DNA of 64,000 nucleotides, from positions 62,001 through 126,000 of the forward strand of contig WHVA01000212.1 in the NCBI GenBank assembly GCA_015179125.1, written 5' to 3'. Origin of the DNA: Gautieria morchelliformis (Eukaryota; Basidiomycota; Agaricomycetes; Gomphales; Gomphaceae). This document shows, piece after piece, positions 44,828-52,588 of this stretch. Numbering within the stretch: position 1 is the stretch's first letter; each line of letters opens with the position of its first letter. The notes below the pieces were generated by a model. That model ran no database searches. It was not told the DNA's origin and saw only the letters and a program-made list of their open reading frames with translations. The position numbers were made by a program, and so were the translations under genes.

Positions 44828-45254
44828 TGTAAGGGCAACCCTGGCTGGTTGTGGAGATCACACTACCACACAACTGACAAGGGGAAATCCAAAGAGAAAA
44901 GTCTAAGGACCCCCAATGTCAGCGAGCCCGTATTATACTACGCTGCGCAGCCAGGGACAACACTTGGCACCCGCCATCAACCCTGCATCTCCCTGACCAC
45001 CCTGACCCTTGATCTACCCTTGATGCCACCTATTACGCGAGTCGCTTGATTTCCGACACTGTTCCAAGAGTGGAAGTCAGAAATTGGAGTGGAACTGGCG
45101 AGGCGAACAGAACTGGTGGAAGTTCTCCCAGAAGCGGAATCATTTCCGAAAGCGGAGGCGGAGATGGAATCGGAACCGGAAGCGGAGTCGGAAATGGAGT
45201 CGGAACTGGGTGTGGTGTCGGAACTGGAAATGGAAAACAGGGTGTCCCCTGACA
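44828..45254 (-). repeat. Gypsy-2 5' LTR
   Basis: 427-bp LTR, the shorter of the pair. The minus-strand sequence after it (GCAGAAAAGTCTCTCC) did not match a tRNA end that I recognise. Confidence 0.92.
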
Positions 45255-47092
45255 ATCATGGCGCGAGCATGTTCGAGCAAGGTGCAATTCAGGCGTTCGG
45301 CAATGCCATTCTGGGCTGGTGAGTAAGGGGCGGTAGATTCCATTATGATCCCTTTCTGGGCGCAGAAATCTCTGAATGGGCCGTTAATATATTCACCGCC
45401 TCCATCGCTGCGCAGGCGCTTAAGCTGGAGCCCAGTCTGTGTTTCAACCAGGGCGGCGTATTCCTTGAAACGATCAAGGACGCCGTCCTTGGTGTGGCTG
45501 AAATAGATGGTGGAGTACCTGCTTTTGGCATCGGTAAACGAATAAAAATACCATTCCCGCGCCGGGCCCTCTGTATTCGCCGGTCCCCAAACGTCGGAGA
45601 CGGTCAGATCGCCTACCAATGTAGCAGCGTCTTCCGACCGTTTGGGGAACGGTTCCACGTGATGCTTGCCCTGAATGCAAGCAACACATTGTGTCACCGG
45701 CGCGGCCGTGTCTACATCCATCCCGGTGACAAGATCGCGCGCTTTCATCAATTTGATCGCACCGATGTTGACATGCCCAAGGATGCGATGCCAGGAGTCC
45801 CAGGACTTCGGCTTAGCCACAGCGGTGAAATCCGTCTGAATGGCAGGGCGGATCCGGGCACGCATGAGGTACACGCGCCCTACCTTGCGCCCCTCGGCAA
45901 ATACTGTCCCTGACTGGGAGCGGAATTTCACGCCGTTGTTGGTGAACAGAGCTACATGCTCCATGTCCGTGAGCCTCCCAACGCTGAGGATGTTGTTTGG
46001 TGCGTCGGGAGCGTGCTTCACGTCCGTTAGTCTCACCGTAAATGTGCGATCGCTGGCCTTGAATTCCATTTGGACAATCCCGTGGCCTAAAGTCTTCAAG
46101 GGGCTCCCAGGGGCAATGCCCTCAATCTCTGATGGGTCAGAACTGAACTCAATAAAATCCCCCCTGTTTCGGGCGATATGTGTCGTCGATCCCATGTCCG
46201 CCAGCCATTCTGATGCAGAGATGGTGGCGCGACATGATAGATCTTCAGCAATGGATGACTGATCGCCCGGCTCGGGGTCTGCGGACTCTATGGCGGCGAA
46301 CACAAAGTTGTCAGCAGCGTTTTTGCTTTCGGTAGCTTGTTTAGTAGAGTCTGCATTTGAGTTCTTAGCTGGATCTTTCCACCACTTCGGCGCTTGCCCC
46401 TCTTTGCCGCCACCCTTGGCCCAGCAGTCTTTGACCCAATGCCCCTTTTTGCCACAATTATTACACTTCCCTTTTGTGGCACCGCCATCATTACGTCCAT
46501 TGCGCCCCTTTCCGCGCTTGTCCTGCACCCTCAAGGCCGTCTCCGTGCCGTGAGTGGAGCGCCGAGTTCGATCCTCTTCGAGGACGTGAGCTATGAGTAC
46601 GTCAGAGGAGAGCGTGGGAAGGGCGGCATTGATCGCTGTAAGGAACGTGGGCCAGGAGCCGGGGAGTGAGGTGAGCAGCGCGTTGCAGAAGTCGCGATCG
46701 CTGACTAGATCACCGAGTGTGTGCAGCTGCTGTTGGAGGCTGCGCAGCTTTCGTATATGCTCTTCCATGTTGCCGCCTTCGGCTATGAAAGCGTGGAAGA
46801 AATCCCGACGTACATTTATTATACCCAACGGCCCTCTTGCTTCGAAGATCGTAAGCAGGGCTAGCCACACCTCACGTGCCGTCGTGGCACCGTATGTATA
46901 GACTAGGTAATCATCACTGATATGCAAGCTGATTGCCGCAAAAGCCTGTTGATCTCTTTTCATCCAATCTGCGATCGCTTGTTTCTCCAGGGCCGTTACG
47001 TTTTTGTCGTCAGCCGGCACTGGTTTCGTCGCCTGACCCGATGCATGTTCCCATAGATCTTGCTCAAGCAAGATCCATCGCATCTTCTCCTT
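45255..47092 (-). CDS. gag-pol: Copia-3 gag-pol, middle part: gag, protease, integrase N-terminal half
   Basis: Open frame starting inside the gag (KEKMRWILLEQDLWEHASG). It continues through the zinc knuckle CNNCGKKGHWVKDC (about 46440), a protease-like WLADMGSTTHIA (Asp-Met-Gly in place of Asp-Ser/Thr-Gly), the pre-integrase WHRILGHVN ... CVACIQGKHHVEPF, and integrase DLTVSDVWGP, RSDGGGEYI and QNGIAERLNCTLLEHARAMI. There it meets gypsy-2 at 45255. A naive start at 47158 would use codons of the tyrosine-recombinase element's terminal repeat. The true N-terminus is at 52588-52517. Confidence 0.92.
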
Positions 47093-47668
47093 CCAGCTTC
47101 GACTGCGCGCGTCCGGGATGAGAGCTGTGAGGTTGGGCTGAGGTGAGTTAGAGCTCACCGGTTGCGCGGAGTAGGATCGCCGCTCGGGTGGGCGGGATTC
47201 TGCTCTGCGGCTGCTCTCATCTCGGTTTCGCGCTGGTTGCGCACTTCGATTTTATTATTCTTCTGGTGTTCTCTATAGTATTCATGTCTAATTAATGGTT
47301 AATACTGTGTCTGTGTCTATATTTTTTTTTTTTTTGCTACGGGGCTGTGTGCTTCGATCCCTTTGGCAAGTCCATGGATCGTCCTCAGGTTCTGATTGGT
47401 GTGGGCGGGTGGGTAAACAAAAAACTTAAGGAGCGGTGTCCGAGCGAAAGAGTGTAGGCGGTGTTTCTTGAGCGAGTGGGTGGTGCGGAGAAGAAGAAAA
47501 ACGGTCGGGAATAGGCACTGGCTGCTGCGCTCTGCTGGACGCTTGGTGCCGACGTCTGCCGGCACCTCTCTCATTCCAGCTTCGACTGCGCGCGTCCGGG
47601 ATGAGAGCTGTGAGGTTGGGCTGAGGTGAGTTAGAGCTCACCGGTTGCGTGGAGTAGGATCGCCGCTC
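47093..47668 (-). repeat. Split direct repeats B1, A2, B2 of the tyrosine-recombinase element
   Basis: B1 is 47576-47668 and B2 is 47093-47185; I see one difference (T/C near the ...GTTGCG word). A2 is 47414-47575, matching A1 at 52355-52516 with two or three differences. The spacer 47186-47413 contains a T15 run. Short plus- and minus-strand frames in this block are not genes. Confidence 0.9.
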
Positions 47669-47730
47669 ACCCATAGCTGCACCCCCCGCGGCGCTCTTGC
47701 GACGCGCTCCCCAACCCGGCACAGCTACGC

Positions 47731-48915
47731 CTAGGCTTCTTCGAGCACTCGCAGGTGTCTTGACGCGACCTGCTCGAATGCCCTGATGTAGGTCTCATAT
47801 GCCAGTGATTTCCACTGTCCTGCTATGCGTACTATCTCTGGGTTTACTCCTTGTGCTAAATAAAAGGAGGCGCCTCCGATTCTGAATGAGTGTCCGAATG
47901 TCGTTCCCCATCCCCAAGCGCCAAGGATCTTGTTTACTCGCTCTAGGGCTCTCGCCTTGGTCATCGGTCTGATCTCGCCGTTGGTGTCTCTCCAGGAGAA
48001 CAGCGGGTCGTCCGGGGCGGCGGGTACCATGGCGGCTAGATTTAGCAGCGCTTGGAGCGGGCATAGGTCTCCTTGCGCTATCATGAACACTGATTGCGTC
48101 TCTCCGGGGCGGGCGGTTTTGGCTGTGGGTAGGTCCAGACGGGTGTACGGTTTTCCATCGTTGTCCCTGCTCAGCAGGGCGTCGGACCTCTTCAGGTGTC
48201 TGCTGCCGTCGAAGGAGCTGCGCGATGCGACGGCCACTTCCCCGAATCTCATCATTCCCCAGAATGCGCACGCGGCCATAGCCCATATGCACGTGTCGAA
48301 TGGGGCGTTGATGTCTAATGTTGCCTTTAGCGCTCTAAGCATGCGTGTGGTCACTGGCGGCCGCATTGGTTTCCTGCGTGTGTTACCGCCTAAGTTCTCT
48401 AGCCCTCGCAGGGACCAATTTATTCGTGTCAGTCCTTCGCTGGTGAGGGGCGGGCGCCATCCTTGGGCTATGTGCCAGGCCCTTACCGCCGCCAGGTACT
48501 TGCGCGCCATGGACACTGAGACTGGCTCCATTGGGACGCTCGCCGCGATGGTCGGGTCCAGCGAGTTTGGGTCAGACACGACCCACAGGGCGAATGAGTG
48601 CATCACTTCGAATGATGCTGGCAGTCTGTCTGTTTCCTGTATTGAGAATGTGTCGCAGAATATGTGAAACTTGCGGAGCCCGGCCCCGTAGCTGACAGCG
48701 TCGCACAGCGATGACCTCGAGGCCAGGCTCTCTATGTACCGTATGAAGGTGTTGCTGATCGTGTTCAGGGGTGGGGTGTGCACGCCTCTCCAGTGGAATA
48801 GGCATTCCTCTGCTCTGCATCCGTGTCTCAGCGGCGATGGCCGGAGTCTTAGCTTGGCGCTGTCCCTTGGGACGGGGGTCGTGGAGGGTGCTGGGTGTGC
48901 GAAGAGTACTGCCAC
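47731..48915 (-). CDS. Tyrosine recombinase of the Ngaro-type element
   Basis: 394-aa site-specific recombinase that would insert the circular DNA copy. The catalytic set is complete: the first Arg in FWGMMRFGEV, a Lys-containing beta-strand region before it, His-x-x-Arg in FGHSFRIGGASF, the second His/Trp in IAGQWKS, and the nucleophilic Tyr in YETYIRAFEQ, close to the C-terminus. The N-terminal SAM-like core-binding domain spans about residues 50-170. The ATG at 48915 overlaps the end of the RT/RNase H frame (48849) in another phase. This is usual for the family and suggests coupled translation or frameshifting. The frame is intact. Confidence 0.92.
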   Translation of the reverse strand: MAVLFAHPAPSTTPVPRDSAKLRLRPSPLRHGCRAEECLFHWRGVHTPPLNTISNTFIRYIESLASRSSLCDAVSYGAGLRKFHIFCDTFSIQETDRLPASFEVMHSFALWVVSDPNSLDPTIAASVPMEPVSVSMARKYLAAVRAWHIAQGWRPPLTSEGLTRINWSLRGLENLGGNTRRKPMRPPVTTRMLRALKATLDINAPFDTCIWAMAACAFWGMMRFGEVAVASRSSFDGSRHLKRSDALLSRDNDGKPYTRLDLPTAKTARPGETQSVFMIAQGDLCPLQALLNLAAMVPAAPDDPLFSWRDTNGEIRPMTKARALERVNKILGAWGWGTTFGHSFRIGGASFYLAQGVNPEIVRIAGQWKSLAYETYIRAFEQVASRHLRVLEEA

Positions 48916-50900
48916 TGTAATAACCGTCCTTCCAGCGAAGCTGGGAGGGGGGTGTTGGAGCTGTCCTGCGCGTGCGGGAAGGCCGCTTTGAACACTGCTA
49001 TGTCGCCTCTTGAGAGCGGGTCGGTGACGTTCGTTTCAGATGGTACGTAGCTTGCTACTAGGCGCAGGCCATGCTTCGCGAGCAGCCTGTAGATCTGTTT
49101 GAGTACCATGTTCATTTCTTTGTTCCGTGCTCTCCCGCTGTTCACCACGGCTACGACACTGGTGTTGTCGGACCTTACTAGTACCTGTCTGCCCTTCAGC
49201 CCGGCTGTCACGCCGCTCTGGATTGCGAGTGTCAGCCCCAAGAGGACCGCTACTGCCTCTCCCCAGGCAATGTCGAACTGTCGCTTGGGCCCTACTTCCG
49301 TGCCGGGTGCCCAGCTCCATGCTCCCCACTGGTCGCCTACGACGACTCCGGCTCTGTATGAGGAGCTGGCATCCCCCCACCATCCGATGTCGACTGGTTC
49401 CCACGTCGCTAGTGGCGTTTCGTTGGGTGAGGCCTCTATGATGTATCGTATCCACGACATGTCTGCTCGCACCTCTGGTGGCGGGGATAGCCGCGCCCGT
49501 TTGGACCGGAAGCTGGCAGCGAATCGTGCTATTGACCTGAGGAAAGGTCTCACTAGCCTGAATATGCACGCCGCGTGCACCAATTTTCCATGGGTGCTGG
49601 CCGCGTCGTGTTCCAAAAACTTGCCTTTGGCATCCATCCATTTTTCTAGCAGGTCTAGGACAGCCTGGACCTTCTCCGTGGGGAGCGCTGCTGTTCTTTT
49701 GGCTAGGTCCCAGATGAATCCGATGTATTTCTGGCATGCCGCTAGCCTTCTTGTTTTCGGTCGACTCCATGGCACCCCAATCTGTTCCGTGAGCGCTATG
49801 AATTCTTCCTCCGTCCACGACTCCTCCGGCGTTTGGATGACAAGGAAGTCGTCCACCCATTTGCGGATGGGTCCGAACCCTGCTGCCAGGTGTATGTCTA
49901 CGATCATGTCGGCTACTGCGCCGAACACCCCGGCGCTTGATGTTAGGCCAAACATGAGCATGCGGTCGACGTAGACCTTGCCTCTCCAATACACGCAGAG
50001 CGCGTTCTGCTGCTCTGGTCGGACTGGCGTCATGCGGTATGCCGCTGATATGTCGAAGGTTGCTGCTCTGCAGCCGTCTGGCAGGGTAACGATCAGCTCT
50101 GCAGTGCTGTCGAAGGTACCCCATTCCGTTGGGAACTTGTCCGAATTTATCCCCGTGTTGATGGACGGGAACTCGGGGTCGTTCCTCGGGAACGATAGGT
50201 CCTGTACCATCCTGAGTTTCTCCGAGTGCGGCTTGGGTACCAGCCCAAGTGGTGCTGACCGGAACGGGCCAATGATCTCCTCTAGGTCCGCTGGGTCGAA
50301 CGCTTCCGAGTAGCGCCCTATCTCCTGCTCTGCTATTATGTAGTCGTCTATCATACTGGGGCTCAGACGCGATGAGCTGTGATTTTCGAAATAAATACGT
50401 GCGTTGGGGCCGCTCGCGCACCAACGTCAAAACCACTGCGTAGTCCATCTGCTATGTGCATCCACTTGTTGTGCAGGCCATATTTACAGAGCAATGACAC
50501 CACTCGATCGGGATCGAGCGGTGTCACTACCTTTCTTGGATCAGGCCTGGGGCGGGCATGTGCCGGCCCTGTGGGTGGTGTCTCCGCACAGGCTACAGCC
50601 GTGCGCGTTGCTGCATGCGTCGCCAAAGGAGCAGGCTGATCCCTTGGCCCAATTAAAGCAATACTGCTTTCCGCTGGGGGCGACAAGGGCGTGTCTGCTC
50701 CTCGCATTGCTGGCGATGCTCGCAACCGGCCGACCGTGGTTGGTCGTGGACGCTTTGCAGTCCGCGGGGAGGTGTCCGGCGGTTCCGCATTGAAAGCAGC
50801 AGGCCCGGGATTTCTTTCCGGTTGGTGGAGGAGAGAATTCGCGGGGGAATGGCCGTTTGCTATGTGGGGAGGGAGGTCGGACAATGCGTGGTCCCGCAAC
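48849..50900 (-). pseudogene. RT/RNase H of the Ngaro-type element (frameshift near its start)
   Basis: The main frame (50354-48849, 501 codons) has RT blocks PLGLVPKPHSEKLRMVQDLS, AATFDISAAYR, MLMFGLTSSAGVF and the catalytic RKWVDDFLVIQ (about 49845), then RNase H with WWGDASSSYRAGVVVG, a GEAVAVLLGL Glu, VRSDNTSVVAVVNSG and NVTDPLSRG. Upstream in another phase, to about 50520, is the family's N-terminal block (TPLDPDRVVSLLCKYGLHNKW, then GFDVGARAAPTHVFIS). It connects to the RT frame only if a single-base change near 50390 is assumed, so the copy is probably inactivated there. The Ngaro-type SGNH hydrolase domain is not seen. Primer and integration chemistry differ from LTR elements, since no DDE integrase is present. 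Confidence 0.88.
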
Positions 50901-52324
50901 CGGCTTGGTCGCTATCAGCGTCAGCGCTGTCACGTCCAGCGTTCTCAGATCGTGCGCCGGGTTCAGCGCTGCCAGCTCCCGCTGCTGGATGTCATACTCC
51001 ATCACGACATCCCAGTTGTGGGAACGCCCTAGGTCCATCACCAGCCTGTGGTGAGAGGCGAGGGAATCTGCTCTCGCATCGCCGTGGTGGAACCTGGTCC
51101 TATCCTCGGTGGCTCTGGCCGCCGCGTACCATTCTATTGTTGAAATGGTTTTCTCGTTTCGGGGTCCAGGCCTTTGGCGGTTAGGCCCCCTTGCGCGTTT
51201 ACGACGAAGTCTTCCTCTCCTCTGCCCGCTTTGAGCCTGGCGGCTAGTGAGAGGGAGGTGTAAGGGACATAACGGTAGGCCTTGAAGGTGTCGTCCGCTT
51301 TCAGCGGCACGGCTGGTGCAGGGTCATCGGTCAGTATGTTGCGGAGCGTGGTTCGCCGGGTGCCGCGTTGGTGGCGCGGGCGCGGAGAAGAAAAAGAAAA
51401 GAAAAAAAAAAAAGAAAACGAAAGGTGGGGAATGAAGGGAAGTAATGGATGGGGTGTCTCTGTGCGGGTGCGTGCCGCTGCTCTGCCCTGGGCCACCACG
51501 CGCGAGCCTATCCTTGGCTGGCTGGCGCTGCTGCCAGCGGGTGCCGACCACGCACGAGCCTATCGCCTGGCTGGTAGGTGCGGTGGAGGACGTGGTCGCA
51601 CGCGAGCCTGTCGCTCGGCCGGCCAGCCTGGATGCGGGGAGGCCTATCGCTCTCCTCCGCCCGATGTTTCGGAGGGTGGGGTGGGGTGGGGGGGGTGTTG
51701 GATTGAAATTGAAACGGCTGGCTCACCTATGTCCAGGGTGCTTGCTTTGAAGCCCGGGATGAGGTCCGGGAGGTGCACCTTCTTGCCGTCGTCCCTGGCC
51801 GCTGCTAGCGCTCTCGCTTGCTCGATGGTCGCTTCGTCGGCGAATAGGGCCTCCTGCACGTTTCCTTGGGGCGGCGGTTGTTCTGCTAGGGGCGGGAGGT
51901 GGACCGGTTGCTGCTGCTGCTGGTGTATCTGCAGCGGTTGCTGCTGTGGCTGCTGCTGCAGCTGTTGGGGTTGTTGTGGCCGCTGTGGCTGCTGCGGCAG
52001 TTGTTGTTGCTGCTGCGGCTGATGCTGGGGTCCTGCGGCTGCTATTTGGGCTCTGAGCTGCCTGATTTCCTTCTCTTGCTCCCTCAGCCTGGCTGCCATT
52101 TCCTGACCGCCGGTCGTCGCGCTCTGCGGATTGTGGACGTTTGCTGCGTGTGTCTCCCTGTTTCTGGCAGGTGCGGGGGGCCTAGGTGCCATCTGTTCCT
52201 GTCGCTGGTGTGCTGGTTGACGTCCGATGCCACCGTTGGGTGACTCGCTCCGCTCGGCGCGCTGGCCTTGCTGCATCTGGGACGGCGGGGGGGTGATGTT
52301 CAGTCCTAGGTGCTCGTGGGTCAT
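50541..52324 (-). pseudogene. Gag-like ORF1 of the Ngaro-type element (possible intron, one frameshift)
   Basis: Starts at ATG 52324 with a Gln/Pro-rich N-terminus and a short coiled coil (MAARLREQEKEIRQLRAQIA). After PGFKASTLDI a GTGAGC donor (51726) and a CACCAG acceptor (51313) would remove 414 nt and continue in frame as VPLKADDTFKAYRYVPYTSL. A frameshift near 51148 (after ETRK) separates this from EWYAAARATEDRTRFHHGD and the last frame 51041-50541. That frame carries a zinc knuckle CFQCGTAGHLPADC and a second Cys-rich module (CFNWAKGSACSF, CSLCGDTTHRAGTC). It would package element RNA. The intron and frameshift are my inference from frame and family pattern. Confidence 0.7.
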
Positions 52325-52354
52325 CGTTCTGCTGCGTGTTGTGCGATGCGGAGT

Positions 52355-52516
52355 TAAACAAAAAACTTAAGGAGCGGTGTCCAAGCGAAAGAGTGTAGGC
52401 GGTGTTTCTTGAGCGAGTGGGTGGTGCGGAGAAGAAGAAAAACGGTCGGGAATAGGCGCTGGCTGCTGCGCTCTGCTGGACGCTTGGTGCCGACGTCTGC
52501 CGGCACCTCTCTCATT
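52355..52516 (-). repeat. A1 terminal repeat of the Ngaro-type element
   Basis: 162 bp, starting AATGAGAGAGGTGCCGGCAG on the minus strand and ending TTAAGTTTTTTGTTTA. It matches A2 at 47414-47575. ORF1 begins 31 nt downstream. Confidence 0.9.
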
Positions 52517-52588
52517 CCACGCGGGATAATTGTCTCCGGTGAGTGGTTCGATCCGGTATAGGGAGCTCGGCTGTGTGAGGGCAGACAT
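52517..52588 (-). CDS. gag: Copia-3 gag N-terminus (24 codons)
   Basis: ATG at 52588 opens a frame with YRIEPLTGDNYPAW, matching the gag start of copia-1 and copia-2 (YKIDPLNGDNYAAW). It is cut after the Trp codon by the Ngaro-type element and resumes at 47092 with KEKMRW. This is too short to be called on its own, but the match to the other copies and the exact in-frame continuation support it. Confidence 0.88.

Follow-up and report, generated by a model that had tools for sequence, protein, structure and literature searches.

The window analysed here is a 64,000-nucleotide stretch of the Gautieria morchelliformis genome (contig WHVA01000212.1, positions 62,001 to 126,000), and our subject is an element nested in a copia gag frame within it. 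The element is a fungal Ngaro-type retrotransposon, a known kind of element: its repeats are split and direct, in the order A1–open reading frames (ORFs)–B1–A2–B2, with no long inverted terminal pair among the repeats listed. As a preliminary description of the window had stated, the repeat set is complete, A1 and A2 differing at 2 of 165 positions and B1 and B2 at 1 of 95. The junctions read CCGCGTGGAATGAG on the left, CTGGAATGAG at the internal B1/A2 seam and CTGGAAGGAG on the right, and the TGGAA previously noted at both ends and at the seam is indeed present; the earlier limits, 47091..52519, take in four target bases on the left and one (47091) on the right. Comparison with relatives elsewhere in the genome shows exact insertion at four targets, with one constant step at each end and no detectable homology to the target.

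The element's recombinase was recognised by its fold. Its frame gave no significant Pfam match, and the predicted structure (mean predicted local distance difference test score 80, predicted template modelling (TM) score 0.55) matched Cre best (E 1.2e-9, TM-scores 0.43 and 0.51, root-mean-square deviation 10.9) and the Int of Tn1549 more weakly; it is through this predicted Cre-like fold that we assign the tyrosine recombinase by which Ngaro elements are known. In an alignment of 22 proteins, the window protein and 21 chosen from the best 120 of 394 homologues found, R218, H337 and Y371 do not vary and R340 hardly does; read from the R-H-R-Y motif, these four are the putative catalytic residues. 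Among the matches listed are named recombinase homologues from mushroom-forming fungi. The reverse transcriptase/RNase H frame matched RVT_3 at 26.6 bits (Pfam cut-off 21.6), a family that we take to be RNase H-like, and its reverse transcriptase part matched neither RVT_1 nor any other Pfam family. The zinc-finger matches of the gag-like frame with cysteine/histidine clusters all stayed below threshold in the Pfam scan, and the glutamine-rich frame, scanned at 1e-3 only, gave no match at that level; in the three other frames, no Pfam match to a methyltransferase, a protease or a DDE integrase appeared at E up to 5.

Table 1. The Ngaro-type element and its copia surroundings, in window positions
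Feature	Position	Strand	Remark
Whole Ngaro-type element	47092..52515	-	limits from family comparison
A1 repeat, left end	52355..52515	-	starts ATGAG
Hairpin close to A1 left end	52486..52507	-	second copy in A2, 47545-47566
Seam stem, A-side arm TCCAGC	52475..52480	-	A2 copy 47534-47539
Glutamine-rich gag-like open frame	51644..52366	-	stop to stop, overlapping A1
Gag-like open frame with cysteine/histidine clusters	50541..51323	-	stop to stop
Reverse transcriptase/RNase H open frame	48849..50426	-	stop to stop; RVT_3
Tyrosine recombinase open frame	47731..49035	-	stop to stop
B1 repeat	47575..47668	-	
A2 repeat	47414..47574	-	B1/A2 seam between 47575 and 47574
A2-B2 spacer, 228 bases	47186..47413	-	
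B2 repeat, right end	47092..47185	-	finishes CTGGA
Seam stem, B-side arm GCTGGA, right end	47092..47097	-	B1 copy 47575-47580
Copia target TGGA, left of insertion	52516..52519	-	
Copia-like frame right of insertion	45140..47091	-	remainder left of 52516, to ~52590

The evidence for a constant step comes from the ends and seams of the family. Genome searches with the A repeat led to 24 places and with the B repeat to 32, while a pair of patterns matched at 21 and 29 places, including some not met before; merging duplicated insertions leaves 14 independent left ends and 20 independent right ends. Dropped before counting were the duplicates (in our handles C682, C438, C305, C385, C588 and, for each side, one of the two C332 places), C159 (left CGGAG, right CTGGC), C163 (a partial B match), C191 (no locus) and the truncated left ends of C694 and C382. 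All 14 left ends start with ATGAG, and the right ends finish with CTGGA in 19 cases and CTGGG in one, the following base being A seven times, C six, G four and T three; the eight B1/A2 seams read, from seven elements, are without exception CTGGA/ATGAG. TGGA precedes ATGAG solely in the window copy, the other 13 left ends carrying GGGA, CACC (twice), AGGT, TTCG, CTCG, TTCA (twice), CGCG, ATCT, GGCT, ATAC and CACG. Because every left end starts with ATGAG and only one has TGGA before it, the TGGA on the left is the copia target's own. Matching of the left tetramers to TGGA is at chance (16 of 56 bases, 14.0 expected), so the TGGAA match of the window copy is no evidence for homology-guided recombination; with equal bases, the chance that TGGA stands before at least one left end in 14 is 0.053, and the match is probably a coincidence of one copy. 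The preliminary description had seen in TGGAA a core common to circle, target and both ends, and had named unrelated flanks at other copies as what would overturn this; such flanks are what the family shows. As a separate observation, target position -2 is C in 10 of the 14 left flanks (nominal p 4e-4, uncorrected for the 24 positions) and either C or G in 13; this C, the strongest base preference, is a possible target preference.

The empty sites give the same picture from the side of the target. The joined copia flanks had 40 matches in the genome, two of them the window's own, and the six uninterrupted copia copies read are all continuous through TGGAAGGAGAAG, five carrying CGTGGAAGG and one CATGGAAGG. 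Against these, the insertion at TGGA/AGGAG in the gag frame has neither duplicated nor lost target bases; the uninterrupted target and the absence of a duplication had both been stated correctly before, and the comparison with empty copia sites, suggested at the time, bears them out. For the repeat holding the C793, C682 and C438 copies, 58 matches were listed and 30 loci were fetched. One of these loci is an occupied copy; in the other 29 the sequence runs unbroken through the join, although one of them has a two-base gap at a distance of two bases. The joined flanks of C371 were listed at 10 places besides their own, and all six that were read are continuous at the join (72-78% identical), as are both spanning relatives read for C970 (78-79% identical). 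At all four targets with readable empty sites, insertion is thus exact, without duplication or loss.

The explanation that best covers these observations, and to which we give a probability of roughly 0.75, is that the recombinase joins a constant B/A seam, CTGGA/ATGAG, to a target without homology. The DNA copy of the retrotransposon would join its B end to the start of A, the same sequence being kept inside the element as B1-A2; the element's tyrosine recombinase would then join this seam, always at the same step, to a target that need not resemble it, in the window to the TGGA/AGGAG of the copia gag frame. This step lies where a possible stem, formed by the B terminus with a segment of A, would end, and the structure of the seam may thus set the cut. 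At both ends, the switch from target to element and back falls at one seam step, and the B1/A2 sequence equals the two ends brought together, as fits a circular intermediate. From these sequences we infer that the intermediate is joined or circular and that the element's own recombinase catalyses the reaction. The earlier proposal of a circle integrated by the tyrosine recombinase is thus partly supported, by the Ngaro-type anatomy, the exact insertion, the predicted fold and the identity of the internal seam with the joined ends; the base-level support that it drew from TGGAA falls away.

Several points weigh against this explanation. From the window junction alone, the position of the crossover within TGGA cannot be fixed. 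The first four bases of the right flanks match ATGA, the circle sequence, at 26 of 80 positions where 19.9 are expected, a small excess. Empty sites cover 4 of the 14 insertions: the joined flanks of C826 have no spanning match in the genome, the empty-site relatives of C371 and C970 are only 72-79% identical, and those of C970 show an 18-base difference five bases left of the join.

How the constant step arises may be understood in more than one way. In the first, a double-stranded circle would be opened by staggered cuts as in Tn916 and Tn1549, the non-homologous overlap of a few bases (e.g., TGGA) would melt, and repair or replication would always keep the circle's copy at the right end. 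Tn1549 is an established case of tyrosine recombination that needs almost no homology (PMC5871717; this and the other papers cited here are drawn on in part), and the Cre-like fold and the weaker Tn1549 Int matches of the recombinase model favour such a circle. The scheme needs a strong added bias, however: if a TGGA overlap were resolved at random, target bases at all 13 informative left ends would have a probability of 1.2e-4, assuming independence. Random resolution being this improbable, either the overlap must resolve in the same direction every time, or the exchange involves a single strand or a single position. We hold the staggered-cut circle to be a serious candidate, if somewhat short of even odds.

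Bearing on the second way are the seams of more distant relatives. A search of the genome with the recombinase gave 109 matches, many of them at about 30% identity, and among them a second clade in which C604 and C382 have full repeat sets with the seams ATTAGTCAGC/TGGATG and ATTAATCAGC/TGGGTA, respectively; three further seams were read in this clade, and intermediate families were met at three places, two of which gave a seam. With queries spanning the seam (between positions 120 and 121), 21 of 23 B-only matches stop at 119-122 and two at 60, while 22 of 36 A-only matches start at 116-121, 13 later and one at 109. At L106 and L107, no direct repeats were found; C229 has a B-like end with no recognisable A and was not used. 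Among viral contigs, 46 stretches fit a pattern and none was confirmed as a relative. It may be recorded here that AGCTGG stands at the B/A seam in both clades (the window family, L108 and L109); the window clade crosses over after AGCTGGA, clade 2 already after AGC. A mirrored overlap, with TGGA kept at opposite ends in the two clades, was considered and dropped; pairing between the B terminus and the A arm gives both clades one geometry.

This pairing is as follows. The B terminus of the window clade, AGCTGGA, could form a stem with TCCAGCT, which lies at A+34 to A+37 (at A+25 in one A2); in the window copy this stem would have six pairs. In clade 2, the partner of the terminus TTARTCAGC would be GCTGAYTAA, a stretch of A that closely follows A's hairpin. 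A scan of 37 arm ends in 13 seams of the two clades places the end of the longest Watson–Crick stem precisely at the crossover in nine of them. In the remaining four, a stem of equal length lies at another place (C241), G-T pairs are required (C615 and C142) or there is a single mismatch (C238). With G-T pairs allowed, a run of at least six is present in 12 of the 15 window-clade elements with both parts in hand (three of the 12 being one duplicated insertion) and fails in C308, C159 and C332. In clade 2, four of five elements have a nine-base run. Paired cells make up 97.8% of the clade-2 stem and 83.3% of the window-clade stem, where one of eight pairs never forms, and each clade has one compensated pair. 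Only 4 and 5 of 500 shuffles scored as high in covariation as stem plus hairpin, but 487 of 500 had pair-type counts as high as those of clade 2; these figures, drawn from 5 and 9 related sequences, are not probabilities; the A piece alone covaries weakly, with changes on both sides in 1 of 15 pairs. On these comparisons, the seam stem is likely real, its possible roles including a single-strand recombination site, the pairing of complementary DNA (cDNA) ends and an RNA signal.

The first of these roles leads to the second way of fixing the step, a folded single strand like that of integron attC sites. The B terminus would pair with the segment of A beyond A's hairpin and one strand would be exchanged at the stem end, fixing the step and making homology unnecessary. 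The coincidence of stem end and crossover in the 9 of 13 seams, the long runs in both clades and the compensated pairs speak for it, but folding as DNA stands out in only two of six seams (C604, z-score -4.0, and C238, -3.6; the others -1.41, -1.44, -1.43 and +0.32), and because the complement of C604 folds nearly as well (-3.3), the energies give no strand preference. Another stem, CTCTCAT with ATGAGAG across the seam, has the lowest energy in five of seven window-clade seams, and in the window seam as DNA also (window:47574-47607 and relatives), and is absent from C694 and C437; in C382 folded as DNA, too, another stem is preferred. Moreover, a six-base run arises in 76-91 of 500 shuffles of the A piece and a seven-base run in 5-31 of 500, the clades are made of related elements, and the clade-2 pair-type counts are unsupportive. 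We therefore regard the folded strand as a possible but rather unlikely account.

Some copies depart from the usual layout. At C694:15400-26858 (L051, L052, L099), a tandem array reads ORFs-B/A-ORFs-B/A-spacer-B, with CTGGA/ATGAG at each of its two internal seams; the two units share 99.94% identity across 1,760 bases. Copies that seem to have a single A and a single B occur among L003/L027 (C826), L013/L037 (C371), L030, L029, L035, L034 and L039, some looking like A-ORFs-B and others like A-spacer-B; recombination between repeats or resolution of a circle at two seams could yield both. At C231 and C385 (L020, L028, L019, L031), two duplicated loci, a left and a right end lie in opposite orientation a few kilobases apart, which suggests an inversion. 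With ~30-35 bases missing from the start of A, the left ends of C382 (L108:1053; A1 without its first 35 bases) and C694 (L099) are without most or all of the terminal hairpin; their right ends are normal. Such late starts past the hairpin are what could be expected if linear cDNA were inserted by host end-joining with the recombinase not involved; the other counted ends are base-exact, however, and the targets read have lost nothing at the join, making this a very improbable explanation. Recombination of a short TGGAA circle junction with an identical target, as in the DIRS1 model (PMC3266345) and as the preliminary description had it, matches the window copy itself but can be dismissed almost entirely, TGGA being absent from all but one of the left ends, and for the window family the unrelated flanks refute TGGAA as a core.

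What is known of the integration of tyrosine recombinase retrotransposons comes largely from models, and that for DIRS1 requires a target identical to the circle junction; the ends counted here (14 left, 20 right) and the empty sites that could be read instead document exact, duplication-free and homology-free insertion at one constant step. The single copy with a chance match to its target is a warning against inferring a mechanism from one copy. In the titles and abstracts from our literature search, neither crossover mapping nor a seam stem was reported for Ngaro elements, and the constant seam rule may be new. Fungal Ngaro elements as described in PMC3783388 share the A-pol-B-A-B order, the RNase H (in the window element an RNase H-like match), the tyrosine recombinase, the lack of a detected methyltransferase and the lack of a target duplication; the anatomy is no different, and a constant crossover or a seam stem is not mentioned in the sections covered. 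With DIRS1-like elements, in the part of PMC3266345 used here, the window family has in common the tyrosine recombinase, the internal copy of the joined ends and the absence of target duplication. For DIRS1, recombination is described there as taking place between a circle junction of 3 bases and the same sequence in the genome, whereas the window family has direct, not inverted, repeats and a target not identical to the junction; neither inverted terminal repeats with an internal complementary region nor a circle junction identical to the target is found. Cryptons (PMC3212892, in part) are likewise eukaryotic tyrosine recombinase elements with a proposed circular form, but have direct repeats of 4-6 bases at their ends, where the window family has none beyond chance and carries putative genes for reverse transcription in addition. 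Tn916 and Tn1549 also insert by tyrosine recombinase almost without homology, but, according to the same part of PMC5871717, their circles carry 5-7 variable bases while the B/A seam of the window family is constant. Integron attC sites and the Vibrio SE elements offer structure-directed or strand-biased exchange (PMC2727003, PMC9345347, both in part), the latter circularising one strand, with the carried spacer tending to one side (PMC9345347); these systems are bacterial, and the use of one strand is only hypothetical for the window family. The possible seam structure is testable with short oligonucleotides, and if the folded-strand account were true, Ngaro elements would be a eukaryotic counterpart of integron attC recombination or of CTX phage integration.

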